Origin: Clostridia bacterium
GTDB taxonomy: Bacteria; Bacillota; Clostridia; Oscillospirales; Acutalibacteraceae
Assembly: GCA_017421045.1 (NCBI GenBank)
Contig: JAFQMC010000032.1
Location: forward strand, 1 to 50,019
Length of the DNA stretch: 50,019 nucleotides
Reading direction: 5' to 3'
Shown in pieces: positions 27,713 to 44,807 of the stretch; the stretch's first letter is position 1; every line of letters begins with the position of its first letter. The notes beneath the pieces are model-generated. The model searched no databases and was not told where the DNA came from. It saw only the letters and a list, made by a program, of their open reading frames with translations. A program made the position numbers and the translations under genes.

Positions 27713-30639
27713 AAAAAATAGGTCTGGACGTAGGCTCCACCACTCTGAAATGTGTGGTACTGGACGAAGATAATAAGATAATTTACTCTACATACAAACG
27801 TCATTTCTCAAAAATTTCACAGATGACGTCCGAGCTTCTCTCGGAGCTTTCCGAGGAATATCCCCATGAGATGCTTCAGATTGTGGTATCGGGTTCTGCA
27901 GGTATGGGTATGGCAAACGACCTGAAACTGCCCTTTGTGCAGGAGGTGTATGCCACCAGAAATGCCGTGAGGAAAGCGGCTCCCGAGGCCGATGTGGTTA
28001 TAGAGCTGGGCGGTGAGGATGCAAAGATACTCTTCATTACGGGTGGTCTCGAGGTGAGGATGAACGGTACCTGCGCAGGCGGTACAGGTGCATTTATCGA
28101 CCGTATGGCTTCACTGCTGTCTGTGGACACTCCTAAGCTCAATGAGCTTGCGAAAGGACGAGAAAAGATTTACACGGTTGCATCCCGTTGCGGAGTGTTT
28201 GCAAAGTCCGATGTTCAGCCTCTTATCAATCAGGGCGCACGCAAGGAGGACATTGCTGCCAGCATCTTCTATGCAGTGGTGAATCAGACTATTGCAGGAC
28301 TTGCTCAGGGCAGGGAGATAAAGGGAAATATCCTCTATCTGGGAGGACCTCTTACATTTCTCTCTGAGCTGAGAAAAGCCTTTGACGATGTGCTGAAAAC
28401 GCGAGGAAACTGTCCCGAAAATTCCCTGTACTTTGTGGCATACGGTGCGGCATTGTCGGATTCAAGCGAGGGTTATGACCTTAAAGAGCTTTCGAAGCAG
28501 ATTTCGGAGTACAGCTCTGAGGGTGGCTACAATGCCTGCAAGCCGTTGTTTACTTCACAAGCACAATACGAGGAGTTTACCGAGCGTCACAAGTCCGCAT
28601 CCCGAGGAATCCGTCAGATAGATAAGCCCTCAGGGGATATGTATCTGGGAATTGATGCAGGCTCTACCACTGTCAAGGTGCTTATGTGCGACGAAAAGGG
28701 CAATATTTTCAGACCCCTTTATACAAAGAATAACGGAAATCCCGTGGCTATAGTCAAGGAATATCTCGAAAAACTCTACAGGGATTTTCCCGATATACAT
28801 ATAAGACAGTCTGCCGTCACCGGCTACGGTGAGGATATAATCAAAAGTGCTTTTCATATTGACCATGGCATCGTTGAGACTATCGCTCACTACACTGCCG
28901 CAAAGAAGTTCAAGCCCGATGTGGACTTCATACTGGATATAGGCGGTCAGGACATAAAATGCTTCAAAATCAGAAACGGCGCTATCGACAACATCTTCCT
29001 CAACGAGGCTTGTTCCTCAGGTTGCGGTTCGTTTCTGCAGACCTTTGCGGCGGCGCTTGGATACTCTATCGAAGATTTTGCCGACTTAGGTCTTTTTGCC
29101 GACAGACCCGTTGACCTGGGTTCCCGTTGCACAGTGTTTATGAACAGCTCCGTCAAACAGGCGCAAAAGGACGGAGCCAGTGTGGAGAATATCTCAGCAG
29201 GACTCTCCATAAGCGTTGTGAAGAATGCACTTTATAAAGTTATCCGATGTGCAAGTGCAGAGGATCTGGGAAAGAATATCGTTGTGCAGGGAGGAACCTT
29301 CCTTAATAATGCAGTCCTCCGCTCCTTTGAGCAGGAGATAGGCCACGATGTAATCCGTCCCGAATACTCGGCGGTTATGGGTGCCTACGGAGCGGCACTT
29401 TATGCACAGAGCAAGGCAAAGAAAAAAGAAAAAAGCTCTGTGCTTACCCAAAGAGAGCTCCAGCATTTTACACACAATGTCAAGGCTATAACCTGCAAGG
29501 GATGCACCAACCGTTGCCGTCTTACTGTGAATACCTTTACAGGCAACGACAGATTCATTGCAGGCAACCGCTGTGACCGACCCATTGACACAGCAAAAGC
29601 AAAAGAGAGATTCAATCTCTACGAATACAAAAACCGACTCCTCGATAAGTATCGTGACGTACGCCCGCAGGAGGGCAGGGCTACCATAGGTCTTCCCATG
29701 GGTCTCAATATGTACGAGCTTCTGCCGTTCTGGGCAACCTTCTTCAGGGAGCTTGGCTTCAATGTGCAGGTGTCTCCCGTGTCGAACAGAAAGATTTATC
29801 TGGAGGGTCAGCACACAATCCCCTCGGATACAGTCTGCTACCCTGCAAAGCTTATGCACGGCCACATCGAGGAACTGCTTAAATCGCAGGTAGATGCAAT
29901 CTTCTATCCCGGTATGACCTATAACTTTGACGAGGGGTTGACCGACCGCAACTTCAACTGTCCTGTGGTGGCATATTACCCTCAGGTTATAGGTGCGAAC
30001 GTGAAGGACCTGGAGAGCACGAAGTTTATCTGTGACTTCATAGGTCTTCATAAGAAAAAAGAGTTTGAAAAACACATAGCTCCCATACTCGGCAAGCATC
30101 TGGGTGTTTTCTCAAAGTCGCTTATTCACAAGGCATCGGAGTGCGCATATGCTGAGTATGAAAGCTACATGGAAAACGTCCGCCGAAAAGGGCAGGAGTT
30201 TCTCTCTCTGGCGAAGAAACGTAATATGCCCGTAATTGTGCTCAGCGGCAGACCCTATCATCTTGACCCCGAGATCAATCACGGCATCGACGAGCTTATC
30301 TGCAACCTGGGCGCGGTGGTTATTACCGAAGACAGCCTGAGTCATCTTGTAAGCCGATTCAGAGTAAGCGTGCGCAATCAGTGGACGTACCACGCAAGAC
30401 TCTACGCCGCCGCAAAATATGTGGCAGAATATCCGAAAGACCTTCAGATCAATCTGATACAGCTTGTGTCCTTCGGTTGCGGAGTGGATGCAGTTACCAC
30501 CGATGAAGTCAGGTCTATTATTGAGAGCAGTGGTAAAATTTACACACAGATAAAGATTGACGAAATCTCAAATATGGGTGCTGTAAAAATCCGCCTCAGA
30601 AGCTTGTTCTCCGCAGCTGTGGACAGAGATGGAAACTGA
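27709..30639 (+). CDS. Double-domain acyl-CoA dehydratase activase (BadF/BadG/BcrA/HgdC family) with DUF2229 tail
   Basis: 976 residues. There are two ASKHA ATPase domains. The first (1 to about 260) begins IGLDVGSTTLKCVVLD and the second (about 310-570) begins LGIDAGSTTVKVLM. Each keeps the two Cys that bridge a shared [4Fe-4S] cluster in HgdC dimers: NGTCAGGTGAF with ASRCGVFAKSD, and NEACSSGCGSF with GSRCTVFMNSS. A four-Cys patch (about 595-623) and a DUF2229 domain (about 640-900) follow, with SDTVCYPAKLMHGHIEELL. Such activases use ATP to inject low-potential electrons into a dehydratase partner. The partner is presumably the upstream gene. In many Firmicutes both parts are one chain of about 1,400 residues; here they are split, with the C-terminal part encoded first. 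Confidence 0.9.
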   Translation: MKKIGLDVGSTTLKCVVLDEDNKIIYSTYKRHFSKISQMTSELLSELSEEYPHEMLQIVVSGSAGMGMANDLKLPFVQEVYATRNAVRKAAPEADVVIELGGEDAKILFITGGLEVRMNGTCAGGTGAFIDRMASLLSVDTPKLNELAKGREKIYTVASRCGVFAKSDVQPLINQGARKEDIAASIFYAVVNQTIAGLAQGREIKGNILYLGGPLTFLSELRKAFDDVLKTRGNCPENSLYFVAYGAALSDSSEGYDLKELSKQISEYSSEGGYNACKPLFTSQAQYEEFTERHKSASRGIRQIDKPSGDMYLGIDAGSTTVKVLMCDEKGNIFRPLYTKNNGNPVAIVKEYLEKLYRDFPDIHIRQSAVTGYGEDIIKSAFHIDHGIVETIAHYTAAKKFKPDVDFILDIGGQDIKCFKIRNGAIDNIFLNEACSSGCGSFLQTFAAALGYSIEDFADLGLFADRPVDLGSRCTVFMNSSVKQAQKDGASVENISAGLSISVVKNALYKVIRCASAEDLGKNIVVQGGTFLNNAVLRSFEQEIGHDVIRPEYSAVMGAYGAALYAQSKAKKKEKSSVLTQRELQHFTHNVKAITCKGCTNRCRLTVNTFTGNDRFIAGNRCDRPIDTAKAKERFNLYEYKNRLLDKYRDVRPQEGRATIGLPMGLNMYELLPFWATFFRELGFNVQVSPVSNRKIYLEGQHTIPSDTVCYPAKLMHGHIEELLKSQVDAIFYPGMTYNFDEGLTDRNFNCPVVAYYPQVIGANVKDLESTKFICDFIGLHKKKEFEKHIAPILGKHLGVFSKSLIHKASECAYAEYESYMENVRRKGQEFLSLAKKRNMPVIVLSGRPYHLDPEINHGIDELICNLGAVVITEDSLSHLVSRFRVSVRNQWTYHARLYAAAKYVAEYPKDLQINLIQLVSFGCGVDAVTTDEVRSIIESSGKIYTQIKIDEISNMGAVKIRLRSLFSAAVDRDGN

Positions 30640-32177: not shown

Positions 32178-32206
32178 TTGACAAAACCCCGATTCCGTCG
32201 TAATAT
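32178..32206 (+). promoter_or_regulatory. Promoter of the T-box operon
   Basis: TTGACA (32178-32183), a 17-base spacer and TAATAT (32201-32206). The word TAATATTAGTA starts at the -10 and recurs at 32227-32237, and ATTAGTACTAAT (32205-32216) is a perfect palindrome, so a repressor could bind here. Confidence 0.7.
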
Positions 32207-32242
32207 TAGTACTAATCTTTATTTTTTAATATTAGTATAAAT

Positions 32243-32487
32243 GCAGTGAAGGAAAATTGCGATTAGGATGTATCCAAAGAGAGCCGATGTATGCTGAAAT
32301 TCGGTGTTCTGAATAACCGCATCTCGTTCCTGAGCAAGGCTTCTGAAAGCAAGCGTTGCTTGCCGTTAGGAGGTTTCGGGTCGTTCCGTTAAAGACTTTT
32401 GAGCGGTCGCAATTCTTTGCGGCAATTAGGGTGGTACCGCGGTGTTATTAATCGTCCCCGAAGCATATCTTGCTTCGGGGCGTTTTT
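32243..32487 (+). promoter_or_regulatory. T-box riboswitch (probably tRNA-Leu; Ile possible)
   Basis: The conserved T-box AGGGTGGTACCGCGG is at 32428-32442 and is followed by a terminator stem CCCCGAAGCA / TGCTTCGGGG (32456-32480) with a T run. Stem I: AGGAA (32250-32254) pairs with TTCCT (32327-32331), and TGCGATTA (32258-32265) with TAACCGCA (32314-32321, one A-C mismatch). The specifier loop 3' strand left between them is TCTCG. By register with the B. subtilis glyQS leader (codon, one base, closing helix, GAGC), the codon is CTC at 32323-32325, meaning leucine. ATC (isoleucine), two bases earlier, is the alternative. Uncharged tRNA would favour antitermination and switch on the downstream amino-acid genes. 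Confidence 0.93.
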
Positions 32488-32515
32488 CAATTATTTACAA
32501 AAGGAGGATGCTGTT

Positions 32516-33928
32516 ATGAAAACAGTAAAAATTGCAGACGTGACCCTCAGAGAAGGCACAGTCGCAAAAACTGCAACACTTAGCTTCAAGGAGAAAATCG
32601 AAATTGCGAAGCTACTTGATCGCATTAAAGTTGACGTTATCGAAATGCCTGCTATTGAAAACGAGGCAACAGATACACTACTCATCAAGACGGTTGCATC
32701 AGTGCTAAGTAACAGTACCCTCAGCGTGGATGCAGGCATGACAGAAGAGTCTGCCGAAAAAGCATGGCAGTCAGTTTCAGCTGCAAAGAAGCCCAGAATG
32801 AGAGTATCTCTTCCCACATCCACCGTTCAGATGGAGTATATTGCACACTGCAAACCCAAGCAGATGCTGGCACTTATTGAGCAGATGGTTTCCTGCTGTG
32901 CAAAGGTTTGCAAGGACGTGGAGTTCTCTGCAGGGGATGCAACCCGCAGCGAGCGCGAGTTCCTCTCTGCAGCAATAAAAACTGCAATCAACGCAGGAGC
33001 AACAACAATCACTGTATGTGACAGTGAGAGCCGTATGCTCCCCGATGAATATAAGAGCTTTATTTCTGCTCTGTATGCTGATGTGCCCGAACTTGCTGAC
33101 GTGAATCTTTCTGTTTCTTGCAGCAGTGAGTTGGGTCTTTCAGGCGCCTGCGCTCTGACAGCTTTGTCTGCAGGTGCTGTAGAGGTCAAGACCGCGATTA
33201 CCAGAACTCAGCTTCCCACACTTGAAAACGTAGTACATCTTATCCGCACCCGTGGTGAGAGCGTAGGGGTGGAGTCTTCGGTGAATGTTACCGAGCTCAG
33301 CCGTACAGTGAAGCAGATAAAAGCAATCGCAAAGACAAAGCGCTCAGACAACACTCCCTTTGACAACAAGATTACAACAGAGTCTGAGGCAAGCATTAAG
33401 CTTGACGAGAGCTCAGATATTTCTCAGGTGAGCCGTGCAGTGAAATCTCTCGGCTACTCACTTTCCGACGATGACCTGGCAAAGGTTTTCGAATCCTTCC
33501 TCAGCACTGCAAAGAAGAAGCAGGTTGGCGCAAAGGAGCTGGAGGCTATCGTTGCAACAGAGGCACTGCAGGTTCCTCCCACTTACAGACTTGTAAGCTT
33601 CGTTGTTAATTCAGGCAACATCATCAGCCCTACTGCAAATATCGTTGTTGAGAAGCAGGGCAAGACCTACACAGGTCTCAGCTCAGGCGACGGCCCCATT
33701 GATGCGGCTCTTCTGGCTTTGGAGCAGATTATCGGTCATCACTACGAGCTGGATGATTTCCAGATTCAGGCAGTTACCGAGGGTCGTGAGGCAATGGGCG
33801 AGGCACTTATCAAGCTTCGCTGTGATGGTGCTCTCTATTCAGGCAGAGGTATCTCCACCGATATCATCGGTGCTACAATCCGTGCCTACCTGAATGCTCT
33901 CAACAAAATCGTATACGGGGAGAACTAA
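32516..33928 (+). CDS. LeuA-like (2-isopropylmalate/citramalate synthase family) protein with degenerate active site
   Basis: 470 residues from the ATG at 32516 with GGAGG upstream; the frame extends back to 32399 but that is T-box leader. The HMGL-like TIM barrel (about 1-270) starts IADVTLREG, against DTTLRDG in the family. It keeps EFSAGDATRSEREFL, but where the enzymes have VHCHNDLG it reads VSCSSELG, so both metal-binding His are Ser201 and Ser203. The GERAGN segment is also gone. The C-terminal LeuA allosteric domain (about 355-467) is well preserved (SGNIISPTANIVVEKQGK, GRGISTDIIGATIRAY). Catalysis of acetyl-CoA condensation is therefore doubtful. A leucine-binding regulatory role or a new reaction is possible. 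It is the first gene of the T-box operon. Confidence 0.85.
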   Translation: MKTVKIADVTLREGTVAKTATLSFKEKIEIAKLLDRIKVDVIEMPAIENEATDTLLIKTVASVLSNSTLSVDAGMTEESAEKAWQSVSAAKKPRMRVSLPTSTVQMEYIAHCKPKQMLALIEQMVSCCAKVCKDVEFSAGDATRSEREFLSAAIKTAINAGATTITVCDSESRMLPDEYKSFISALYADVPELADVNLSVSCSSELGLSGACALTALSAGAVEVKTAITRTQLPTLENVVHLIRTRGESVGVESSVNVTELSRTVKQIKAIAKTKRSDNTPFDNKITTESEASIKLDESSDISQVSRAVKSLGYSLSDDDLAKVFESFLSTAKKKQVGAKELEAIVATEALQVPPTYRLVSFVVNSGNIISPTANIVVEKQGKTYTGLSSGDGPIDAALLALEQIIGHHYELDDFQIQAVTEGREAMGEALIKLRCDGALYSGRGISTDIIGATIRAYLNALNKIVYGEN

Positions 33929-33929
33929 A

Positions 33930-36449
33930 ATGAAATTATCCTTTTCTACTAACGGCTGGGGCGGATTCGGCTGGGAGGATTTTTACTCCATGGCAAAGGA
34001 CCTTGGTTTCCAAGGCGTTGAAATCCACGACATCAGCCGAAGCGTTTACTACGGAGTGAACGGTCCTCTCCGCGAAGAAAATATAGCAAAGACCGTACGA
34101 ACCCTTGCTTCTCTGGAGCTTTCAATTCCTTGCATTGATGCATTGTGTGATATTTCCGATGAGTCGAAGGTTCAGGAAAATATAGAGGAAATCAATCGTC
34201 ATATAGAGCTTGCAGCACAGCTTAACTGTCCCTATGTCCGCGTTCACGCAGGCAGTGGTGCAGAGAATGCAGACAAAACCGCAGAGCAGGTGCTCAGAGC
34301 CTGTCTCGGAACAGCAGAGAATCAGAAAGTCGCAATGCTTGTTGAGACGGTGGGTATCTATGCAGATACACAGCGACTCCGCGATTTGCTCAATATTTTC
34401 GCAAGCGACAATGTGGCGGCTCTGTGGGATATGAATCATCCCTGCCGTGAATTTGACGAAACTCCTGAGCAGACAATCACAAACTTAGGTGCTTACATAA
34501 AGCATGTGCATATAAAGGACTCTGTGAAAGAGACAGGCAAAACAAGCTACCGCCTTATGGGCGAGGGAGATTTGCCCATTGACAAGATGATGTTCGCCCT
34601 GACTTCTATCAACTACGAGGGATTTATCTCCTTTGAGTGGATTCCTCAGTGGATAGAGGAGATAGGGGACGCAGGAATTGTATTCCCTCATTTCATCAAC
34701 TTCATGAGCCGTTTTGATACAGAGGCATCTGCACAGCCTCAGCTCTACGATAACAAGACAAAGACCGGTAAGTTTATATGGAAGAAAGAAACACTCATTG
34801 ATATGACCTGCTCTCAGATGCTGGATAAGATTTGTGAGCATTTCCCTGACCAGTACGCTTTCCGTTATACAACCCTTGACTACACCCGTACATACACGCA
34901 GTTCCGCGACGATGTAGATGAGTTCGCCAGAGTGCTTATATCTCTGGGTGTAAAAAGCGGTGACAAGGTTGCAATCTGGGCAACCAACGTGCCCCAGTGG
35001 TTTGTTACCTTCTGGGCAACAACAAAAATCGGTGCGGTTCTGGTAACAGTAAACACCGCATACAAGATCCACGAGGCAGAGTACCTGTTCCGTCAGTCAG
35101 ACACCCACACACTGGTGCTGATTGAAGGCTCCAAGGATGCAAGCTACGTTGACATTGTCCGCGAGCTTTGTCCCGAACTTGAGAACACGGTTCCCGGGGA
35201 GCCTCTGCATGCACGCAGACTTCCCTTCCTGCGTAATGTCATCACCGTCGGTTGTTCTATGAAGGGCGCCCTCACTTGGGAGCAGTCGTTGAAGTTTGCC
35301 GACAAAACTCCTCTGGAGGAGGTTCGCCGCAGAGCTTCTCTGGTACATCCCCATGATGTAGGCAATATGCAGTATACCTCAGGTACCACAGGCTTCCCAA
35401 AGGGTGTAATGCTCACTCACTATAACTTCCTCAACAATGGTAAGTGCATCGGCGACAGAATGGATTTGTCCACTGCTGACCGTATGATGATTCAGGTGCC
35501 TATGTTCCACTGTTTCGGCATGGTGCTGTCTATGACAGCCGCTATGACCCACGGTGTTACAATGTCACCCATACCTTACTTCTCACCCAAGAACTCACTT
35601 GCTTGTATCAACAACGAGAAGATTACCTGCTTCCACGGAGTTCCCACAATGTTCATCGCACTTCTGGAGCACGACGACTTTAAGAAGACAGATTTCTCTC
35701 ATATGCGTACAGGTATCATGGCAGGTTCACCCTGTCCCATTGCTGTTATGCAGGATGTTGTTAACAAGATGCATATGCCGGAGATTACTATTGTTTATGG
35801 TCAGACCGAGGCTTCTCCCGGATGTACCATGAGCAGTGCCGACGACCCGCTGGAGGTAAGAGTTTCCACCGTCGGCGGTCCTCTGCCGAAGATTGAGTGC
35901 AAAATTGTAGACCCCGAAACAGGCGAAGAGATGCCCGACGGCGAGAACGGAGAGTTTGTTGCCCGAGGCTACAACATCATGAAGGGTTACTACAAGATGC
36001 CTCAGGCCACCGATGCTGCAATTGATGCTGACGGATGGCTTCATACAGGCGACCTCGCCTGCCGTACACCCGAGGGTAACTTCCGAATCACCGGCAGACT
36101 CAAGGATATGATCATCCGTGGCGGTGAGAACATCTACCCCAAGGAGATCGAGGAGTTTATCTACACTCATCCAAAGGTAAGCGATGTTCAGGTAATCGGT
36201 GTTCCCGATGAGCAGTACGGCGAGGAGATTATGGCATGTGTCATCCTCAAGGAGAACGAGGAAATGACCGAGGATGAGCTGAAGAAGTATGTCCTTGACC
36301 ATATGGCTCGCCACAAGGTTCCCAAGTATATTGATTTTGTTGACGGATTCCCCATGAATGCCGCCGGCAAGATTCTCAAATATAAAATGCGTGAAGACGC
36401 AGTTAAGAAATACGGCCTTTCAAAAGCCGCAGAAATTGAAACAGCTTAA
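33930..36449 (+). CDS. Fusion of xylose-isomerase-like TIM barrel and acyl-CoA ligase
   Basis: 839 residues from the ATG at 33930, one base after the upstream stop; GGGGAG precedes it. Residues 1 to about 262 form an AP-endonuclease-2/sugar-phosphate-isomerase-like barrel: LGFQGVEIHD, then VETVG, ALWDMNHP, HVHIKDS and FEW, which supply candidate metal ligands. Residues about 285-839 are a full AMP-forming acyl-CoA ligase: P-loop YTSGTTGFPKGV, YGQTEASPG, the hinge region GRLKDMIIRGGENIYPKE and the catalytic Lys in AAGKILKYKM. The ligase half activates a carboxylic acid to acyl-CoA. I know of no standard pathway enzyme with this fusion. In this operon, branched-chain or related short acids are the likely substrates. 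Confidence 0.88.
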   Translation: MKLSFSTNGWGGFGWEDFYSMAKDLGFQGVEIHDISRSVYYGVNGPLREENIAKTVRTLASLELSIPCIDALCDISDESKVQENIEEINRHIELAAQLNCPYVRVHAGSGAENADKTAEQVLRACLGTAENQKVAMLVETVGIYADTQRLRDLLNIFASDNVAALWDMNHPCREFDETPEQTITNLGAYIKHVHIKDSVKETGKTSYRLMGEGDLPIDKMMFALTSINYEGFISFEWIPQWIEEIGDAGIVFPHFINFMSRFDTEASAQPQLYDNKTKTGKFIWKKETLIDMTCSQMLDKICEHFPDQYAFRYTTLDYTRTYTQFRDDVDEFARVLISLGVKSGDKVAIWATNVPQWFVTFWATTKIGAVLVTVNTAYKIHEAEYLFRQSDTHTLVLIEGSKDASYVDIVRELCPELENTVPGEPLHARRLPFLRNVITVGCSMKGALTWEQSLKFADKTPLEEVRRRASLVHPHDVGNMQYTSGTTGFPKGVMLTHYNFLNNGKCIGDRMDLSTADRMMIQVPMFHCFGMVLSMTAAMTHGVTMSPIPYFSPKNSLACINNEKITCFHGVPTMFIALLEHDDFKKTDFSHMRTGIMAGSPCPIAVMQDVVNKMHMPEITIVYGQTEASPGCTMSSADDPLEVRVSTVGGPLPKIECKIVDPETGEEMPDGENGEFVARGYNIMKGYYKMPQATDAAIDADGWLHTGDLACRTPEGNFRITGRLKDMIIRGGENIYPKEIEEFIYTHPKVSDVQVIGVPDEQYGEEIMACVILKENEEMTEDELKKYVLDHMARHKVPKYIDFVDGFPMNAAGKILKYKMREDAVKKYGLSKAAEIETA

Positions 36450-36464
36450 AAGGAGTTGTCAGAT

Positions 36465-37532
36465 ATGTTAGATATTAAGATTACAAAAACCGCAAATCCA
36501 AAGGCAAAGCCTCAGGACGAGTCAAAGCTCGGCTTCGGTAAGGTTTTCACTGACCATATGTTTGTCATGAACTACACAGAGGGTCAGGGCTGGCACGATG
36601 CACGCATCGTGCCCTACGAGAATATTTCTCTTTCACCTGCCGCAATGGTATTCCATTACGGTCAGGAGATGTTCGAAGGTCTCAAGGCATACCGAGGCAA
36701 AGACGGCGAGCCCAGACTTTTCCGTCCCGATATGAACGGAAAGCGTACAAACGACACCAATAAGCGTCTCTGCATTCCCGAGCTTCCCGTTGAGGATTTT
36801 GTAGAGGCTGTCAAGGCAGTTGTTAAGGTTGACGAGGACTGGATTCCCACAGCAGAGGGTACCTCTCTTTATATCCGTCCTTTCATTATTGCAACCGACG
36901 AGTTCCTGGGTGTTGCTCCCAGTAAGACATATATGTTTATGATTATCCTCTCACCCTCAGGCGCTTACTATTCAAGCGGTCTGGCACCTGTAGGCATCTG
37001 GATTGAGGACGACTACGTGCGTGCTGTCCGCGGTGGTATCGGCTTTGCAAAGACAGGCGGTAACTACGCAGCTTCTCTGGCAGCACAGGTCAAGGCTCAC
37101 GACGGCGGTTACAGCCAGGTTCTGTGGCTTGACGGTGTTGAGAGAAAGTACATTGAAGAAGTAGGCGCAATGAACATCTTCTTCAAGATTGACGGCAAGG
37201 TAGTCACACCTGCTCTCTCAGGCAGTATCCTGCCCGGTATCACCCGTAACTCTGTTATTACACTTTGCAAGAGTTGGGGTCTTGATGTTGAGGAGAGAAA
37301 GATTTCCGTTGACGAGCTTCTGGAAGCTCAGAAGAGCGGAAAGCTTGAGGAAGTATTCGGCACAGGTACTGCTGCTGTTATTTCTCCTGTCGGCACACTC
37401 CGCTACAAGGATGACGTTATGACTATCGGCGACGGCTCCATCGGCGAGCTTTCTCAGAAGCTCTATGATGCAGTTACAGGTATCCAGAACGGCACTGTAG
37501 CTGATGAGTTTGGTTGGATCACTCAGGTATGA
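36465..37532 (+). CDS. ilvE: Branched-chain amino acid aminotransferase
   Basis: 355 residues from the ATG at 36465, 9 bases after AGGAG; a TTG in frame at 36456 abuts that site and is rejected. It is a fold-type IV PLP enzyme of the long BCAT class, with MVFHYGQEMFEGLKAYR, TSLYIRPFI, GFAKTGGNYAASL (the PLP Lys lies in this region), YIEEVGAMNIFF and GTGTAAVISPVG. It interconverts valine, leucine and isoleucine with their 2-oxo acids using glutamate/2-oxoglutarate. It overlaps the next gene by 4 bases. It would perform the last step of amino-acid formation from oxo acids made by the ferredoxin oxidoreductase downstream. Confidence 0.96.
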   Translation: MLDIKITKTANPKAKPQDESKLGFGKVFTDHMFVMNYTEGQGWHDARIVPYENISLSPAAMVFHYGQEMFEGLKAYRGKDGEPRLFRPDMNGKRTNDTNKRLCIPELPVEDFVEAVKAVVKVDEDWIPTAEGTSLYIRPFIIATDEFLGVAPSKTYMFMIILSPSGAYYSSGLAPVGIWIEDDYVRAVRGGIGFAKTGGNYAASLAAQVKAHDGGYSQVLWLDGVERKYIEEVGAMNIFFKIDGKVVTPALSGSILPGITRNSVITLCKSWGLDVEERKISVDELLEAQKSGKLEEVFGTGTAAVISPVGTLRYKDDVMTIGDGSIGELSQKLYDAVTGIQNGTVADEFGWITQV

Positions 37533-38197
37533 TAAAGGATTTCAAGCGAATCACCATTTTCGCAGGACACTACGGCTCCGGAAAGACAAACATCGCAGTT
37601 AACTACGCTGTGAACATCAAGGAGCAGACAGGAAAAAACGTGGCACTTGCGGATCTGGATATAGTCAATCCCTACTACAGGGCAAAGGACAGCACCGACA
37701 TCCTGGAAGCAAAGGGTATCCGTATGATATCCTCACCCTTTGCTAATTCAAACGTGGATTTACCTGCACTGCCTGCTGAGGCTTATTCGCTTATTCACGA
37801 TAAGACCACATACGCGGTCTGTGATGTAGGCGGCGACGACCGAGGCGCCTATGCTCTGGGCAGATACAGAGAGGGAATTCTCAGCGAGGACTACGAGATG
37901 CTGATGATTGTCAATAAATATCGTCCTCTGACCCGTACCGTGGAGGATGTTCTCTCTATGAAAGAAGAGATTGAGACAGCGGCAGGGATCCCCTTTACAG
38001 GCATTGTTAATAATTCAAATATCGGAGTGCTTACCACATATGAAGATGTGGTAAGCTCCTTCGGCTTTATTGAGGAAATTGTCAAAAAGACGGGCTTGCC
38101 CTTGCTTTTTACAGCAGTATGGGATAAAATATATCCTGAAGTCTCACAAAAATACGAAAATATACTGCCTCTGATCCTGCAATCCAGGGTCTGGTAA
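37529..38197 (+). CDS. P-loop ATPase (SIMIBI/MinD-like) of unknown role
   Basis: 222 residues from the ATG at 37529, which overlaps the ilvE stop (ATGA). Walker A is AGHYGSGKTN (12-21), close to the deviant ParA/MinD type but with Ser before the Gly. ALADLDIVNPYYRAKDS and YAVCDVGGDDRGA supply switch regions, and MIVNKYRPLTRT resembles the NKxD base region. No Cys pair for cofactor carrying is apparent. Proteins like this help insert metal clusters, drive partitioning or activate partner enzymes. Its place between ilvE and the oxidoreductase suggests assembly or activation of that enzyme, which is inference. Confidence 0.78.
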   Translation: MIKDFKRITIFAGHYGSGKTNIAVNYAVNIKEQTGKNVALADLDIVNPYYRAKDSTDILEAKGIRMISSPFANSNVDLPALPAEAYSLIHDKTTYAVCDVGGDDRGAYALGRYREGILSEDYEMLMIVNKYRPLTRTVEDVLSMKEEIETAAGIPFTGIVNNSNIGVLTTYEDVVSSFGFIEEIVKKTGLPLLFTAVWDKIYPEVSQKYENILPLILQSRVW

Positions 38198-38213
38198 GAT
38201 GGAGGAAATGAAT

Positions 38214-38417
38214 ATGGCAAAGGTAACATTCAACAAAAATCTTTGTAAGGGCTGTGCTCTGTGCGTAGGCGCATGTCCCAAGGGGATTGTTGCTCTCTCC
38301 GATGAAATCAATCAGAAGGGCTATCATCCCGCAACCGTAACCGATCAGGAAAAGTGCATCGGCTGTGCATTCTGTGCAACCATGTGTCCCGATTGTGTTA
38401 TTACTGTTGAGAAGTAA
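38214..38417 (+). CDS. Ferredoxin-type delta subunit of 2-oxoacid:ferredoxin oxidoreductase
   Basis: 67 residues from the ATG at 38214 with GGAGG 8 bases upstream; an ATG at 38199 is the wrong side of that site. Two [4Fe-4S] motifs, CKGCALCVGACPKG and CIGCAFCATMCPDC, carry electrons between the TPP subunit and ferredoxin. It is the first of four subunit genes in the order delta, alpha, beta, gamma, with gaps of 0-14 bases. Confidence 0.95.
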   Translation: MAKVTFNKNLCKGCALCVGACPKGIVALSDEINQKGYHPATVTDQEKCIGCAFCATMCPDCVITVEK

Positions 38418-38431
38418 GGAGGAGAAGAGAT

Positions 38432-39499
38432 ATGTCAGAAAAAGTTTTGATGAAGGGTAACGAAGCTCTGGCAGAAGCTGCAATTATGGCAGGCTGCCGC
38501 CACTATCTGGGCTATCCCATTACCCCTCAGACTGAAATAGCAGCCTATATGGCTAAGCGTATGCCCAAGGTAGGCGGTACCTTCCTGCAGGCAGAGAGCG
38601 AAATTGCCGCTATCAATATGGTTATCGGTGTTTCTGCAGCAGGAAAGCGTGCAATGACCTCAAGCTCAAGCCCCGGAATCTCCCTGAAGGGTGAGGGCCT
38701 TTCATACCTTGCAGGCTGTGACCTGCCTGCTTTCGTTGTAAACGTACAGCGCGGCGGCCCCGGTCTCGGCGGTATCCAGCCCTCTCAGTCCGACTACTTC
38801 CAGGCAACCAAGGGCACATCCCACGGTGACTATCATATGCTGGTTCTTGCTCCTGATTCAGTTCAGGAGATGGTCTCCATGACCTTCAAGGGCTTTGATA
38901 TGGCCGATAAGTACAGAATGACCGTTATGCTTCTGGCTGACGGCACCATGGGTCAGATGATGGAGCCTGTATCCCTTGATATGGGTGAAGTCGCTGAGTA
39001 TGACAAGTCCTGGGCAGTTACCGGCACAGGCTGTGCACGTAAGCACAACGTTGTAAACTCTCTGTTCCTCAAGCCCGAGGAACTTGAGAAGAAGAACTTC
39101 GAGCGTTTTGAAAAGTACAGATACATCGAGGAGAACGAGGTTATGTACGAGGAGTACATGATGGACGATGCTGATATCTGCATCGTAGCTTTCGGTATTG
39201 CTGCCCGTGTCTCCAAGAATGCAATAGATATGGCAAGAGCCAAGGGAATCAAAGTCGGTATGCTCCGTCCCATTACCTTGTGGCCCTTCCCCAAGAAAGA
39301 GCTTCGTGAAATCGCAGACAAAGTTAAGTGCTTTGTAAGCGTTGAGATGTCCATGGGACAGATGATTGAGGATGTCCGTCTTGCAACAGAGTGCACCAAA
39401 CCCGTGCTTCTTTGCAACCGTGTAGGCGGTATGATCATGACTCCCGAAGAGGTTCTCGCAAAGATTGAAGAAGCTGACAAGACAGGAGGTAACAACTAA
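38432..39499 (+). CDS. vorB: 2-oxoisovalerate-type ferredoxin oxidoreductase, alpha subunit
   Basis: 355 residues, the length of VorB-type alpha subunits. It begins MKGNEALAEAAIMAGCRHYLGYPITPQTE, given here as MKGNEALAEAA and GYPITPQTE. It continues with LQAESEIAAINMVIGVSAAG, TSSSSPGISLKGEGLSYLAG and VVNVQRGGPGLGG. The enzyme family interconverts branched-chain 2-oxo acids with acyl-CoA plus CO2 using ferredoxin and TPP. In the reducing direction it carboxylates isobutyryl-, isovaleryl- or 2-methylbutyryl-CoA. Homologues use 2-oxoglutarate or indolepyruvate, so substrate identity rests on the operon (ilvE, acyl-CoA ligases). Confidence 0.92.
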   Translation: MSEKVLMKGNEALAEAAIMAGCRHYLGYPITPQTEIAAYMAKRMPKVGGTFLQAESEIAAINMVIGVSAAGKRAMTSSSSPGISLKGEGLSYLAGCDLPAFVVNVQRGGPGLGGIQPSQSDYFQATKGTSHGDYHMLVLAPDSVQEMVSMTFKGFDMADKYRMTVMLLADGTMGQMMEPVSLDMGEVAEYDKSWAVTGTGCARKHNVVNSLFLKPEELEKKNFERFEKYRYIEENEVMYEEYMMDDADICIVAFGIAARVSKNAIDMARAKGIKVGMLRPITLWPFPKKELREIADKVKCFVSVEMSMGQMIEDVRLATECTKPVLLCNRVGGMIMTPEEVLAKIEEADKTGGNN

Positions 39500-40248
39500 T
39501 GGCAGTAGTATTTGAAAAGCCCAAGGCACTCACCGATGCAGTGCTTCATTATTGCCCCGGCTGTACCCACGGTATCATTCACCGTCTGGTAGCTGAGGTT
39601 ATCGACGAGCTTGGTATTCAGGGTAAAACAGTAGGAATTGCTTCCGTTGGTTGCTCCGTTATGTCCTATGACTATTTTGATGTTGACATGGTTCAGGCAG
39701 CTCACGGCAGAGCTCCTGCAGTCGGCACAGGTGTCAAGCGTGCAAATCCCGACAATATCGTATTTACATATCAGGGTGACGGCGACTTGGCTGCTATCGG
39801 TACAGCAGAGACGGTTCACTCTGCTGCAAGAGGTGAGAACATCACCGTTATCTTTGTAAACAACGCAATCTACGGTATGACAGGCGGCCAGATGGCTCCC
39901 ACAACTCTCCCCGGTCAGGTCACTCAGACCTCTCCTTACGGCAGAGATACAAACACCGTAGGCTTCCCTCTCAAGGTCTGCGAGCTTCTGTCCAATGTGG
40001 ACGGCGCTACTTATCTTGAGCGTGTTGCTGTTAATAATGTCAAGAACGTAAAGGCTGCCAAGAAGGCTATCAAAAAGGCCTTCACATACCAGACAGAGGG
40101 CAAGGGTTTCTCTCTTGTAGAGGTAGTTTCCACCTGTCCCACAAACTGGGGTATGACACCTCAGAATGCTCTCAAGTGGCTGGAAGAAAACATGATTCCT
40201 TATTATCCTCTGGGTGTATATAAGGACAAGTACGCACAGGAGGGTTAA
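39499..40248 (+). CDS. 2-oxoacid:ferredoxin oxidoreductase, TPP-binding beta subunit
   Basis: 249 residues; the ATG overlaps the alpha-subunit stop (TAATG). It shows the cluster/TPP-region motif YCPGCTHGIIHRL and the TPP-Mg motif GDGDLAAIGTAE ending NNAIYGMTGGQMAPTT. The ACP-style CPGC and the short length fit the four-subunit VOR/KOR class. The beta subunit holds thiamine pyrophosphate and performs the carbon chemistry. Confidence 0.94.
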   Translation: MAVVFEKPKALTDAVLHYCPGCTHGIIHRLVAEVIDELGIQGKTVGIASVGCSVMSYDYFDVDMVQAAHGRAPAVGTGVKRANPDNIVFTYQGDGDLAAIGTAETVHSAARGENITVIFVNNAIYGMTGGQMAPTTLPGQVTQTSPYGRDTNTVGFPLKVCELLSNVDGATYLERVAVNNVKNVKAAKKAIKKAFTYQTEGKGFSLVEVVSTCPTNWGMTPQNALKWLEENMIPYYPLGVYKDKYAQEG

Positions 40249-40252
40249 GAGT

Positions 40253-40789
40253 ATGACAAAGAATATGCTTATTGCCGGCTTCGGCGGACAGGGTATCCTC
40301 TTCTCAGGAAAGTTTCTGGCTTATGAGGGACTTCTGGAGGACAAATCAGTCAGCTGGCTTCCTTCCTACGGCCCCGAGATGCGCGGAGGTACAGCAAACT
40401 GCTCCGTTATTATTTCCGACGCACCCGTTGGCTCACCCATTGTTTCAAACCCCGATATCCTCATTGCAATGAATATGCCCTCTCTTGATAAGTACGAGGA
40501 CGCTACTGTCAAGGGCGGACAGATTTTCATTGACAGTGCTCTCATCGACAGAAAGGTAGAGCGTGAGGACGTAGAGGCTTACTACATCCCTGCAACCAAG
40601 CTTGCAAGCGATGAGGGACTTTCAGGTCTTGCAAATATGATTATGCTGGGATACGTTATCAAGAAAACCAACATTATTCCTTTTGAGAATATTGACAGAG
40701 CTTTGCAGAAGGTTGTTCCTGCTTCAAAGCAGCATCTGCTGGATTCAAACAAGAAGGCTCTGGAACTGGGTTATAATTTTGCTGAGTAA
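40253..40789 (+). CDS. 2-oxoacid:ferredoxin oxidoreductase, gamma subunit
   Basis: 178 residues from the ATG at 40253 with GGAGGG upstream; a frame from 40214 lies within the beta gene. The CoA-binding gamma fold begins AGFGGQGILFSGKFLAYEG and has SYGPEMRGGTANCSVIIS. It completes the four-subunit enzyme. A small hairpin CAATCT / AGATTG lies right after its stop codon, in the 68-base gap before the regulator gene. Confidence 0.94.
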   Translation: MTKNMLIAGFGGQGILFSGKFLAYEGLLEDKSVSWLPSYGPEMRGGTANCSVIISDAPVGSPIVSNPDILIAMNMPSLDKYEDATVKGGQIFIDSALIDRKVEREDVEAYYIPATKLASDEGLSGLANMIMLGYVIKKTNIIPFENIDRALQKVVPASKQHLLDSNKKALELGYNFAE

Positions 40790-40857
40790 TGACAATCTCA
40801 GAAGATTGTGATATACTTGATGCAAGACTTCATTGAATTTGAAAAGGAGACATCGTC

Positions 40858-41409
40858 ATGACTGAACAATTAAGAGAAATCGGCACAAGACTGGAAGAAC
40901 TCCGTGAAATCTGTGACATTTCCGCAGAGGATATGGCACGACAGATGGATATGTCGGTAGAAGAATACCGCGCATATGAAGAGGGTCAGCTTGATTATTC
41001 TTTCAGCTTCCTCTATAATGCGGCAAATATTCTCGGTGTGGAAGTCGTGGATATTATGAGCGGTGATTCTCCCAAGCTCTCTACCTGCGTTGTCACCAAG
41101 AAGGGTCAGGGTATTGAAGTAAGCCGTAACGATTCCTACGACTACTCTCATCTGGCATTTACCTTCCGCGGTAAGCGTGCAGAGCCAATGATTGTTACCA
41201 CCGAGCCTTCAAAGAAGACTCCGGTGATGCATGAGCACGAGGGACAGGAGTTTGACTACATCCTTTCCGGCACAATGAAGTTTTACATCGGGGACATTTC
41301 CTATGAGCTGAGTAAAGGCGACAGCATTTACTTTGACTCCGGAAAACCTCATTCATTCAAGGCAATCGGCGAAAAGCCCCTGAAGTTCCTTGCAATAGTA
41401 ATTAAGTAA
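40858..41409 (+). CDS. XRE-type HTH regulator with C-terminal cupin
   Basis: 183 residues; AAGGAG precedes the ATG. Residues about 8-65 are a Cro/CI-type helix-turn-helix (LEELREICDISAEDMARQMD, then VEEYRAYEEGQ). Residues about 105-183 are a cupin: MHEHEGQEFDYILSG with His/Glu metal ligands and DSIYFDSGKPHSFKAIG. HTH-cupin proteins commonly sense a small metabolite. The acyl-CoA ligase gene 20 bases downstream suggests control of acid activation, possibly by binding the free acid or acyl-CoA. It could bind the palindrome at the operon promoter. Confidence 0.9.
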   Translation: MTEQLREIGTRLEELREICDISAEDMARQMDMSVEEYRAYEEGQLDYSFSFLYNAANILGVEVVDIMSGDSPKLSTCVVTKKGQGIEVSRNDSYDYSHLAFTFRGKRAEPMIVTTEPSKKTPVMHEHEGQEFDYILSGTMKFYIGDISYELSKGDSIYFDSGKPHSFKAIGEKPLKFLAIVIK

Positions 41410-41429
41410 TTTTCCGGGAGAATTTGGAA

Positions 41430-43154
41430 ATGGCAATATACGAAAAATATACAGGCAGAAGCAGAGAGTCTTTTACCTCTCTGGAAGATTGTCGCAAGAA
41501 CTATAAACTCACTTGGAACGATGATTTTAACTTCGCCTATGATGTAATTGACGAGCTGGGACGTACAAAGCCTCAGAAGTTGGCACTTATGTATATCTCC
41601 GCAGATAACGAGGAGAAGCGTTTTACTTTTGAGGATATGATGCTTCTCTCCAACAAAGCCGCAAACTACTTAAAATCCCTCGGCATCAAAAAGGGCGACA
41701 GAGTTCTGCTTATTCTCAGAAGAAGCTATCTGTTCTGGGTGGTGCTTCTGGGACTTCACAAGATTGGTGCAGTGGTGGTTCAGGCGAACGATATGCTCAA
41801 AACAGGCGAGTATATCTATCGCTGCAATGTAGGCCGTATTGATGCGATTCTTCTCACAGGTCACGGCAATTGTACCGAGAACTACGATGCAGGCGAGGGT
41901 CAGTATGAGACAGTCCGTCTGAAGATGGTCACTGAGCACAAGCAGGCAGGTGAGGGTTGGATAGACTTTGAAGAAGGTCTTGAGAAAGCCTCCGACAAGT
42001 GGACCCGTCCTACAGGCAGAGCCAACACCAAGGCAACAGATCCCATGATGATGTGCTTCAGCTCAGGAACTACAGGCTATCCTAAGATGATAGTTCACGA
42101 TTTTTCCTATCCTTTGGGTCACATTATGACAGGACTTTTCTGGCACAGAGTTGTGGATGGCGGTATGCACTTTACAATTTCCGACACAGGCTGGATGAAA
42201 TCCGTGTGGGGTAAGCTCTACGGTCAGTGGTTCGGCGAGACCGCTATAATGGTATATGACTTTGAGCGTTTCAACGCAAGAGACATTCTTGAAAAGCTTG
42301 AGAAATATCAGGTTACAACATTCTGCGTACCTCCCACAATGTATCGCTTCCTGCTTCAGGAAGATATAGAGAGCTTCGACCTTTCTTCAATTCAGCACTG
42401 CTGTACAGCAGGCGAGGCACTTCCTGCAGATGTTTTTGAAAAGTGGAAGGAGCTTACGGGTCTTGAGATTCACGAGGGGTTTGGCCAGAGTGAAACTCCC
42501 ATCTGTATAGGTACACTCTATCCCTGGAGCAAACCTGTTCCCGGCTCTATGGGACGTCCTGTTCCCGGCTATGATATAAAGCTTCTGGATGCAGACGGTG
42601 ACGAGTGCCGTCAGGGTATCACAGGTGAGATATGTATCAAAGCGCCCACTCTTGCAACCCGCCCCAGAGGACTTCTGTGCAACTACAACTGGAGCAAGGA
42701 AGATACCAAGGAGAAGTGGTACGGCGGTTACTACCATACAGGTGACGTTGCCTATGTGGATGAGGATGGTCTGTTCCACTATGTCGGCAGAAACGACGAT
42801 GTTATCAAATCCTCGGGATACCGTATCGGCCCCTTTGAGGTTGAGTCGGTACTCTTGGAGCATCCTGCGGTGCTTGAGGCAGCAGTTACTGCATATCCTC
42901 ACGAAACAAGAGGTCAGATAGTCAAGGCTAATCTGGTGCTTCGTCCGGGATTCACTCCTTCTGATGAACTTACTCAGGAGCTGAAAGATTATGTCAAGAA
43001 GAACACAGCTCCCTATAAGTACCCAAGAATGATTGAGTATTTTGATGCTCTGCCCAAGACTTTCTCAGGCAAAATCCGCCGTATTGAAATCCGTAACAAG
43101 GATATCGATAAATACCGTGCTGAAAAACTTGCCGCAGAAAAGGCAGAAAACTAA
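41430..43154 (+). CDS. Acyl-CoA synthetase (AMP-forming, medium/short-chain type)
   Basis: 574 residues from the ATG at 41430, 9 bases after GGGAG; a TTG at 41424 is rejected. The P-loop is FSSGTTGYPKMIVHD. The aromatic-rich TISDTGWMKSVWGKLYGQW is typical of the acetyl-/medium-chain (ACSM-like) group. YHTGDVAYVDEDG, GRNDDVIKSSGYRIGPFE and the catalytic Lys in TFSGKIRRIE complete the fold. It makes acyl-CoA from a carboxylate, ATP and CoA. In this operon isobutyrate, isovalerate or 2-methylbutyrate are the natural candidates. It is the last gene before the operon terminator. Confidence 0.93.
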   Translation: MAIYEKYTGRSRESFTSLEDCRKNYKLTWNDDFNFAYDVIDELGRTKPQKLALMYISADNEEKRFTFEDMMLLSNKAANYLKSLGIKKGDRVLLILRRSYLFWVVLLGLHKIGAVVVQANDMLKTGEYIYRCNVGRIDAILLTGHGNCTENYDAGEGQYETVRLKMVTEHKQAGEGWIDFEEGLEKASDKWTRPTGRANTKATDPMMMCFSSGTTGYPKMIVHDFSYPLGHIMTGLFWHRVVDGGMHFTISDTGWMKSVWGKLYGQWFGETAIMVYDFERFNARDILEKLEKYQVTTFCVPPTMYRFLLQEDIESFDLSSIQHCCTAGEALPADVFEKWKELTGLEIHEGFGQSETPICIGTLYPWSKPVPGSMGRPVPGYDIKLLDADGDECRQGITGEICIKAPTLATRPRGLLCNYNWSKEDTKEKWYGGYYHTGDVAYVDEDGLFHYVGRNDDVIKSSGYRIGPFEVESVLLEHPAVLEAAVTAYPHETRGQIVKANLVLRPGFTPSDELTQELKDYVKKNTAPYKYPRMIEYFDALPKTFSGKIRRIEIRNKDIDKYRAEKLAAEKAEN

Positions 43155-43164
43155 GCAATAATAG

Positions 43165-43194
43165 ATGAGGGTCTGGTTTCAGACCCTCATTTTG
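43165..43194 (+). terminator. Terminator of the T-box operon
   Basis: An 11-bp perfect stem ATGAGGGTCTG / CAGACCCTCAT with a GTTT loop is followed by a short T run. Confidence 0.92.
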
Positions 43195-43234
43195 AGATTT
43201 ATCGGAATGTTTTATTCAGAATCGAGGTTTGCGA

Positions 43235-43807
43235 ATGAAATTGTCAAAAGATAATCTGAAGCGATGTCTTGGGCTTTTTCTGGTGTTTTTTAAAATCGGA
43301 GCTTTCACCTTTGGCGGCGGAGTTGCCATGATTCCCTTTATGGAGAGGGAAGTGGTGGAAAAGAAAAAGTGGATAGACAAGGATGTGCTTCTTGATATTG
43401 TGGTGGTGTCGGAGTCTACTCCGGGTCCCATCGCCATTAATGCTGCAACTTTTATCGGATACAAAACAGCAGGCTTCTTTGGTTCAATGTTTGCAACCTT
43501 GGGTGTCGTTTTGCCGTCTTTCATTATAATTTTGGGTTTATCCTTCTGCCTTGAGTATGTGTGGACAGTGCCCGTGGTTCAATTTGCACTCAGAGGAATC
43601 CGTGCAGGAGTTCTGGCTCTTGTGGTTAAAGCACTCTGGTCTTTGTTCAAGAAAACTCCCAAGAATACCTTTGCTTATATAATGATTATCCTGAGCTTTT
43701 TAGCTGTTGTTATATTCGATATAAAGGTTCTCATCATCATTATTTCCGGTGCACTTCTGGGACTGGCTGTTTTCTTTATCACGAAGAAAGCGGGTGAGAA
43801 GAAATGA
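43235..43807 (+). CDS. Chromate transporter family protein, first half
   Basis: 190 residues from the ATG at 43235 (GAGG 7 bases upstream). It is a short CHR-domain protein with FKIGAFTFGGGVAMIPFMEREVV and VVSESTPGPIAINAATFIG, and about 5-6 membrane segments. Short CHR proteins work as pairs made of two homologous halves; the partner is the next gene, overlapping by 4 bases. The family exports or imports chromate or a similar oxyanion. The physiological substrate in gut anaerobes is unclear. Confidence 0.93.
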   Translation: MKLSKDNLKRCLGLFLVFFKIGAFTFGGGVAMIPFMEREVVEKKKWIDKDVLLDIVVVSESTPGPIAINAATFIGYKTAGFFGSMFATLGVVLPSFIIILGLSFCLEYVWTVPVVQFALRGIRAGVLALVVKALWSLFKKTPKNTFAYIMIILSFLAVVIFDIKVLIIIISGALLGLAVFFITKKAGEKK

Positions 43808-44403
43808 TATTCCTTGAACTTTTTCTCATTTTTCTGAAACTGGGCGCTTTTACCTTCGGTGGAGGAGCGGCGATGATGCCGTTTCTTGAGGACGAGGTGG
43901 TAAGCAGAGGCTGGCTGACTGCAGAGCAGTTTGTAGATTTTGTTGCCATAAGTGAGAGCACACCCGGTCCCTTTGCGGTAAATATTGCAACCTATGTCGG
44001 CTCACAGATGGGCAGTTCAGAAATGGGCGGTTCGTTTTTTTGGGGAGTAGTGGGTGCCGTATGTGCTACCCTCGGACTGGTACTTCCTTCCTTTGTTATT
44101 ATCTTGCTGATAGCCAGATTTTATGAAAAATTCAAGTCGAGCAATCTTGTGAAGGGTGCAATGACAGGGCTGAAACCAGTGTCTATCGGACTCATTGCCG
44201 CGGCGGTGGTATCTATTGGTCAGGTTGTGTTCTTCCCTCAGGGATTTGACCTCTCGGTGTTTATCAGCTACAACTTCATTACCTCGCTGATTATCTTTGC
44301 AGGTATGACGGTGCTTTGCTTTCGTAAGATTCATCCGATTCTTATAGTTGTATTTTCCGCCATACTCGGTATCGGATTCGGATATTTAGAAAAACTCTTT
44401 TAA
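43804..44403 (+). CDS. Chromate transporter family protein, second half
   Basis: 199 residues, with the start codon inside the end of its partner (ATGA). It has the same CHR hallmarks: LKLGAFTFGGGAAMMPFLEDEVV and AISESTPGPFAVNIATYVG. It probably forms a heterodimer with the preceding protein, with the two inserted in opposite orientation. Confidence 0.93.
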   Translation: MIFLELFLIFLKLGAFTFGGGAAMMPFLEDEVVSRGWLTAEQFVDFVAISESTPGPFAVNIATYVGSQMGSSEMGGSFFWGVVGAVCATLGLVLPSFVIILLIARFYEKFKSSNLVKGAMTGLKPVSIGLIAAAVVSIGQVVFFPQGFDLSVFISYNFITSLIIFAGMTVLCFRKIHPILIVVFSAILGIGFGYLEKLF

Positions 44404-44792: not shown

Positions 44793-44807
44793 TAGCAGAT
44801 ATTGCTA
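44793..44807 (+). promoter_or_regulatory. Leader inverted repeat TAGCA-N5-TGCTA
   Basis: Arms TAGCA (44793-44797) and TGCTA (44803-44807) lie just downstream of the -10. The same arms with a 4-base gap occur at the same place before the next gene (48035-48048). Confidence 0.5.

Follow-up and report, generated by a model that had tools for sequence, protein, structure and literature searches.

A candidate leucine-responsive operon for the synthesis of branched-chain amino acids from branched-chain fatty acids in Clostridia

A T-box operon and its proposed function

The 50,019-nucleotide contig JAFQMC010000032.1 of a Clostridia bacterium of the family Acutalibacteraceae (assembly GCA_017421045.1; the whole stretch is called "the window" here) is contig 22 of a 1.34 Mb genome that is 68% complete, and it carries a T-box leader followed by a ten-gene operon which, judged from its sequence, is very probably a leucine-responsive unit for converting exogenous branched-chain fatty acids into branched-chain amino acids. 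A first-pass annotation of this DNA had proposed a pathway of acyl-CoA ligase, branched-chain 2-oxoacid:ferredoxin oxidoreductase (VOR) running in reverse and the aminotransferase IlvE; the leucine specifier of the leader and the isoleucine and valine T-boxes of sister operons, which name the three proposed products, support it.

In the proposed mechanism, a shortage of leucine would leave tRNA-Leu uncharged and the leader would then antiterminate. The gene 2 ligase would activate isovalerate to isovaleryl-CoA with conversion of ATP to AMP, the gene 10 ligase would activate 2-methylbutyrate and/or isobutyrate, VOR (genes 5-8) would carboxylate the acyl-CoA with CO2 and reduced ferredoxin to the 2-oxo acid, and IlvE would aminate the 2-oxo acids to leucine, isoleucine or valine. 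Gene 1 would most likely report leucine to gene 2 and throttle the ligase, giving leucine control at both the transcript and the protein level, and gene 9 may act likewise on gene 10. The branched acids would come from neighbouring microbes, and sister lineages would run the same chemistry in three T-box units, one for leucine (genes 1-2) and one each for isoleucine and valine (fusions of a helix-turn-helix (HTH)-cupin protein with a ligase, hereafter fusion ligases). Because the genes stand under a T-box and the ligases are AMP-forming, we infer that flux runs in the direction of synthesis.

Gene content and conservation of the operon

The ten closely packed same-strand genes of the first-pass annotation are borne out (+ strand, 32516-43154, intergenic gaps of -4 to +68 nt), and profile matches recover the enzymes it named, namely two AMP-forming acyl-CoA ligases, IlvE and a four-subunit 2-oxoacid:ferredoxin oxidoreductase whose alpha, beta, gamma and delta subunits are encoded together (Table 1). 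Absent from its list were the LeuA-like protein of gene 1, the triose-phosphate isomerase (TIM)-barrel half of gene 2, the P-loop protein of gene 4 and the HTH-cupin protein of gene 9.

For comparison we used 148 genomes (our own included, the others at least 80% complete), 42 of which have gene 1 at 38% identity or more; in two of them (G035 and G070) gene 1 is cut by contig ends. The expectation that relatives would share the gene order is confirmed by the same-genus genomes of this set with a gene 1 identity of 64% or more (the window, G064, G038, G058, G080, G069 and G024): all seven have the ten genes and the same neighbours, and a CUC T-box precedes the operon in each. A scan of named genomes, from which the best 80 loci were kept, gave mostly assemblies labelled Clostridia, many of them from ruminant guts, and the closest gene 1 among these 80 (L122, 74% identical) belongs to a Ruminococcus sp. 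assembly obtained from the rectum of a roe deer. The barrel and ligase of gene 2 lie right behind gene 1 in all 71 of these loci that are long enough to judge, the other 9 being too short. Among the organisms named for part of 127 plasmid records, no Ruminococcus appears.

The sister architecture is most fully displayed in G110 (L059), where three T-boxes stand in tandem, the leucine T-box before genes 1-2, the isoleucine T-box before a fusion ligase and the valine T-box before a second fusion ligase; the valine unit continues with ilvE, the P-loop gene and VOR, the VorB frame being split in two in that assembly. Both an isoleucine and a valine T-box precede fusion ligases in 16 of the 20 stretches retrieved.

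Our own genome holds further units of these kinds. Contig 15 (C15:9868-14100, L048) carries another leucine T-box, whose genes 1 and 2 have diverged from those of the window (identities of 48% for gene 1, 68% for the ligase and 41% for the barrel), and contig 20 (C20:1178-3826, L066; copy L072) has an isoleucine T-box (AUC; 57.6 bits, below the gathering score) before a fusion ligase that shares its contig with ilvD and a truncated ilvC. In several relatives a gene for a protein of about 268 amino acids follows genes 1-2, and the copy in L049 (L049:10402-11205) encodes an Amidohydro_2 protein.

The leader specifier is a leucine codon

The single T-box leader noticed at first reading is recovered by the Rfam family RF00230 above its gathering score (Table 1), and after its antiterminator stands a competing terminator whose 5' side overlaps the antiterminator sequence CGUCCCC. 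The first-pass annotation had staked its proposal on the specifier not belonging to an unrelated tRNA, and the specifier is CUC, a leucine codon. Its register was set by Rfam alignments and by a MAFFT alignment of 18 stem I sequences; in both, the codon lies at a fixed place before the base of stem I, and in the window it is CUC followed by G. An isoleucine reading (AUC, from CAUCUCG) was rejected on two grounds: the base before UCUC is G or A in the family while CUC is constant, and CUC alone keeps the register of the other T-boxes. By these alignments the T-box of the operon is a leucine T-box, and the leader would be expected to respond to uncharged tRNA-Leu.

Specifiers at related loci

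Specifier codons at related loci were read with a script that requires a paired stem base and ignores codon identity, after removal of exact duplicates; the tallied loci are related and do not represent independent events. All four control T-boxes of our own genome, which precede known genes, gave the right codon: the script found UUC for PheST and ACC for ThrS, and visual reading of the Rfam alignment found UGG for TrpB and GCC for AlaS. For the 113 gene 1 starts the script gave 66 CTC, 9 CTG, 1 TTG and 1 GCT, with 33 starts unread and 3 at contig edges, so that a leucine codon was found in 76 of 77 readings; the exception (L018, GCT) is a register misread for which the Rfam alignment gives CUC. 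Seven of the 33 unread starts have a leucine-codon T-box by cmscan (CUC at L165, L183 and L141, CUG at L179 and L167, and likewise a leucine codon at L038 and L200), and four script-missed starts (L147, L150, L174 and L196) lay outside that check. Among the 110 gene 1 starts with upstream sequence there are thus 84 with a leucine T-box, 22 with none found and 4 unscanned.

For the 108 fusion-ligase starts the readings were 49 ATC, 31 GTA and 4 GTC, with 19 unread and 5 at contig edges; that is, the 84 T-boxes read comprise 49 for isoleucine, 35 for valine and none for other amino acids. This tally leaves out 108 tblastn pieces that start past residue 60 or score less than 200 bits (plain ligases and fragments), and six of the 19 unread starts (L041, L042, L046, L122, L136 and L140; 43-44% identical) are taken to be separate gene 9-gene 10 pairs belonging to ten-gene operons. 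Shifts occur between synonymous codons (CTC, CTG and TTG for leucine; GTA and GTC for valine), as expected under selection for the amino acid.

Two other leaders came to light. At L192:5315-5492 an L10_leader RNA match (56.7 bits, gathering score 44) stops some 10 nt short of a gene 1 match at which no T-box was found; this is possibly an attenuator of another type, or chance; L140 has a weak L10_leader match elsewhere (30.1 bits). On contig 9 of our own genome (C9:90405-90665, L002) a tyrosine T-box (UAC) precedes a further AMP-forming acyl-CoA ligase (L062:10683-12359). This ligase is present in 7 of the 9 relatives searched, with UAC in the 3 of those 7 whose leaders the script caught, and the arrangement suggests that tyrosine might be made from 4-hydroxyphenylacetate; no indolepyruvate oxidoreductase alpha subunit for such a tyrosine branch scored over the cut-off in our own genome.

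The ligases

In gene 2 the AMP-binding motif of the ligase is kept in 21/21 sequences, and mean identity is 76% for the ligase versus 44% for the barrel. Outside the window clade the barrel loses the residues that we take to be its metal ligands, and a conserved catalytic role for the TIM barrel, once considered, was dropped on that account.

The best solved relative of gene 10 is the structure 3etc_A (628.9 bits), and MbcS is the best NCBIfam match of both gene 10 and the own-genome fusion ligase, which lie below its cut-off (NF047394, 414.9 and 434.2, respectively, vs 850). According to the available portions of the papers on these enzymes, MacsMa (PDB 3ETC) prefers 2-methylbutyrate (PMC10455477), and MbcS activates 2-methylbutyrate and isobutyrate, and isovalerate poorly (PMC10026030). 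The T-boxes agree independently with this preference for 2-branched substrates, since isoleucine and valine T-boxes stand on the MbcS-like ligases and leucine T-boxes on the gene 2 type. The likely substrates are isovalerate for gene 2 and 2-methylbutyrate and/or isobutyrate for gene 10.

MbcS itself is described as serving lipid synthesis (PMC10026030, in the portion available), and its place as best NCBIfam match of both ligases lends something to the idea that they mainly feed branched acyl-CoA primers to membrane fatty-acid synthesis, VOR and IlvE supplying or balancing the same pool. T-boxes for three amino acids, one per ligase, sense tRNA charging and not the state of the membrane, however, IlvE and VOR lie in the same operon, and most carriers lack leuB and ilvC (below); we consider this alternative quite unlikely.

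IlvE and the oxidoreductase

Gene 3 scores above the IlvE equivalog cut-off (TIGR01123, 417.8 vs 250.05), and the alpha subunit of the oxidoreductase passes the VorB subfamily cut-off (Table 1). In the genus, VorB (E up to 1e-80) occurs in 28/30 genomes with gene 1 vs 0/60 without, and in the whole set in 39/42 vs 26/106; these and all other presence/absence counts given here run across related genomes and are uncorrected for kinship, a point against our interpretation. The count in the genus indicates that VorB belongs to the branched-acid route. Outside the genus, VorB is present in 11/12 genomes with gene 1 and in 26/46 without, so its link to the module is weaker there. The enzyme is predicted to act on branched 2-oxo acids.

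The delta and beta subunits match 2-oxoglutarate oxidoreductase models best, far below the cut-off, and one could therefore suppose a 2-oxoglutarate or pyruvate synthase that supplies general anabolic carbon while the ligases and IlvE alone serve the branched route. This supposition conflicts with the VorB match of the alpha subunit and with the distribution of VorB in the genus, and without VOR the CoA esters would have no evident path to 2-oxo acids; it appears highly improbable.

Gene 1, a LeuA-like protein without the metal-binding pair

HMGL-like and LeuA_dimer domains are both recognized in gene 1, the latter above its threshold (PF08502, 109.7 vs 24.9 bits), and LeuA models are its best matches, at scores below the LeuA equivalog cut-offs (TIGR00973, 292.6 vs 598.7; NF002086, 318.7 vs 532). 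In an alignment of 35 homologues, the window protein included, to E. coli LeuA, the metal-binding HxH pair of catalytic histidines was lost in 35/35 (one keeps the second His), and all 35 had a 4-residue gap in the GERAGN loop. The Asp of LRDG is Glu in the window protein and still Asp in 10/35 homologues. Mean pairwise identity within the gene 1 family is 68% for LeuA_dimer vs 46% for the barrel.

A working 2-isopropylmalate synthase, with which the operon would extend the 2-oxo acid of valine to leucine, would account for the domains and best matches, and the Asp retained in the LRDG column of some homologues, not the window's, is in its favour. We rejected an active LeuA on the residues, since the pair and the loop are lost throughout, and no leuB scores above cut-off in 39/42 carriers; this possibility is scarcely credible. 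With the pair and loop gone and LeuA_dimer the better conserved part within the family, gene 1 fits instead a leucine sensor without synthase activity, and because it is constantly adjacent to gene 2 and shares its leucine T-box, we infer that gene 2 is its target.

Replacement of the de novo route

The de novo genes are scarce where gene 1 is present. Among the 42 gene 1 genomes and the 106 others, respectively, leuB is above cut-off in 3 and 90 (Fisher p 2.5e-19), ilvC in 5 and 77, and ilvD in 6 and 75, and leuA is present in 3 and 88, the leuA count being made up of 70 genomes over the NF002991 cut-off and 21 judged by inspection to have the classical form. For leuB the difference holds in the genus (3/30 with gene 1 vs 58/60 without) and in the rest of the order (0/12 vs 32/46), where the figures for ilvC are 2/12 vs 23/46 (p 0.05). 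It also appears within families, with vs without gene 1, as 0/3 vs 1/1 (f3), 0/1 vs 1/1 (f14), 0/1 vs 2/2 (f18) and 0/2 vs 1/1 (f20); family f19 is uninformative (0/1 vs 0/2). The fusion ligase shows the opposite distribution, 41/42 vs 14/106, on a hand-picked list that includes partial copies and three copies with an in-frame stop (G090, G103 and G109), and in the 26 genomes with two copies, some of them partial, neither ilvC nor ilvD exceeds its cut-off. Of the genomes with the identical ten-gene operon, three (G038, G058 and G069) show no leuA, leuB, ilvC or ilvD above cut-off, and two gene 1 genomes (G102 and G143) have ilvC and ilvD.

VOR enzymes are reversible and commonly oxidative, which gives some room to an operon that degrades branched-chain amino acids, with IlvE and VOR working oxidatively to yield acyl-CoA and reduced ferredoxin and the ligases acting on the products. 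T-boxes turn genes on when charged tRNA is scarce, though, the AMP-forming ligases work in the costly, activating direction, and most carriers lack the de novo genes, and we regard degradation as very improbable.

Several further observations weigh against synthesis from branched acids under leucine control as set out above. The absence of de novo genes that the first-pass annotation had thought worth checking is strong across the 148 genomes but does not hold fully at home: our own genome has ilvD (764 bits) and an ilvC piece that runs into a contig end, so the branched-acid route may be supplementary there. In G064 the contig that bears ilvC has leuB and leuA further on, and by that order the leuA and leuB of our own genome may have been lost to assembly. 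Three genomes with the identical operon (G064, G080 and G024) keep all four of leuA, leuB, ilvC and ilvD, and leuB is likewise missing from 16 genomes that have no gene 1. For the beta, gamma and delta subunits of VOR, none of the families listed (the best 25 of 58 in the case of delta) is matched at its curated cut-off, and in comparison with E. coli LeuA the dimer domain and the barrel of gene 1 are conserved to the same degree (29% vs 28%). At 22/110 gene 1 starts there is no T-box at the sensitivities used: at L131, L132 and L140 none was found even at E up to 1, and at L136, L176 and 17 others none at the gathering score. The first five of these loci have gene sets like that of the window, and other control must act there. 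Lastly, script readings were out of register at L018 and at the contig 9 tyrosine T-box, and L051 yielded an edge artefact.

A broader evolutionary account would be that in gut Clostridia a dead 2-isopropylmalate synthase was kept after the loss of de novo synthesis as an allosteric leucine sensor and re-coupled to an isovalerate ligase, placing the leucine branch under feedback control, each of leucine, isoleucine and valine having its own T-box and ligase; we put the chances for and against this account at about equal.

Features of the region and its neighbours

The coordinates of the operon and its signals are collected in Table 1; the promoter-like site begins at the left boundary that the first-pass annotation had given. 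Promoter-like sites in the region number 15, against a mean of 12.7 (sd 3.4) in shuffled sequences, which is not clearly above expectation. The terminator that had been placed at the end of the operon is matched by a hairpin at the expected place; its function as a terminator is likely and not established, because just three T follow it on the + strand and the terminator scan flagged the - strand only.

Table 1. Features of the operon region, in window coordinates.
Feature	Position	Strand	Evidence
Sigma-70-like promoter, TTGACA-17 nt-TAATAT	32178..32206	+	10/12 matches
T-box leader RF00230, specifier CUC (Leu) at 32323-32325, then G	32237..32462	+	104.0 bits (gathering 93), E 5.6e-22
Leader terminator hairpin, 10 bp and T run (32456-32480)	32456..32487	+	fold z = -4.4
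Gene 1: LeuA-like, 470 amino acids, barrel without HxH pair, LeuA_dimer kept	32516..33928	+	
Gene 2: AP_endonuc_2 TIM barrel fused to AMP-forming acyl-CoA ligase, 839 amino acids; predicted isovalerate ligase	33930..36449	+	
Gene 3: ilvE, branched-chain aminotransferase	36465..37532	+	NF009897 508.9 vs cut-off 307
Gene 4: P-loop protein, CobQ/MinD/ParA kind	37529..38197	+	CbiA 24.6 bits, just below gathering 25.4
Gene 5: VOR delta, ferredoxin-like, 4Fe-4S motifs	38214..38417	+	profile matches
Gene 6: VOR alpha (VorB)	38432..39499	+	NF005507 535.6 vs cut-off 399
Gene 7: VOR beta, thiamine pyrophosphate (TPP)-binding	39499..40248	+	profile matches
Gene 8: VOR gamma	40253..40789	+	profile matches
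Gene 9: HTH-cupin protein; ligase-fused in sister T-box operons	40858..41409	+	
Gene 10: AMP-forming ligase, MbcS/MacsMa kind; predicted 2-methylbutyrate/isobutyrate ligase	41430..43154	+	
Terminator-like hairpin, 11-bp inverted repeat, operon end	43165..43190	+	

Three neighbours were characterized by eye. A gene pair resembling a chromate transporter (43229-44403) follows the operon in 7/7 same-genus copies; a large secreted-looking protein (44802-47873) carries dockerin-like repeats early in its sequence and long linkers rich in Thr; and upstream of the operon a 976-amino-acid protein (27709-30639) resembles a 2-hydroxyacyl-CoA dehydratase activator of the BadF/HgdC type, a gene also found upstream of the operon in G058, G080 and G069.

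Relation to known systems and significance

Rumen cocci require branched acids for growth. Their use of isovalerate, 2-methylbutyrate and isobutyrate as amino-acid precursors is cited in the available portion of PMC7356843, as is the carboxylation of isovalerate to leucine by rumen bacteria (Allison and co-workers, 1962 and 1966); its reference list covers the conversions of isovalerate to leucine and of isobutyrate to valine, and PMC10658910, in the portion available, describes the same physiology in methanogens. The route proposed here is like rumen isovalerate carboxylation in its order of carboxylation and then amination, its substrates, its products and its setting in rumen anaerobes; that work is cited physiology, whereas here there are candidate genes, T-box switches and a pseudo-LeuA.

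T-box control of leuA and of ilv-leu operons is already known (PMC2494555, PMC2700814 and PMC12452182, each in part). The B. subtilis ilv-leu operon (PMC12452182) shares with ours a tRNA-Leu T-box over leucine synthesis, but it has one T-box for all and encodes the de novo ilvBNC-leuABCD enzymes and not a branched-acid route. MbcS of S. aureus and MacsMa of Methanosarcina acetivorans are AMP-forming ligases of the same kind as gene 10 and the fusion, with 2-branched substrates, whereas the ligases here score below the MbcS equivalog cut-off, lie beside or are fused to an HTH-cupin protein and stand under leucine, isoleucine or valine T-boxes. Gene 1 shares both domains of bacterial LeuA, including the leucine-binding dimer, and differs in the HxH pair and a loop, which every homologue aligned has lost. 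The oxidoreductase resembles VOR in its four subunits and in passing the VorB cut-off, and differs in its proposed reductive direction. Among the matches listed, no paper describes this gene system in its title or abstract, most subscription journals lying outside that search, and word searches of PMC2494555, PMC3766115 and PMC12452182, with terms that differed by paper, turned up neither a ferredoxin oxidoreductase nor an AMP-binding ligase controlled by a T-box.

If the proposed function is correct, an old physiological observation, the nutrient dependence of rumen bacteria described in the 1960s, would gain genes and a form of control. The T-box specifiers would allow the intended product of each ligase to be read from DNA, and so would give substrate predictions at the level of the amino acid for three ligase groups. 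Genes 1-2, the fusion ligase and VorB, together with the absence of leuB and ilvC, may serve as a marker for gut bacteria that depend on cross-fed branched acids, and gene 1 would be a case of a biosynthetic enzyme apparently turned regulator.

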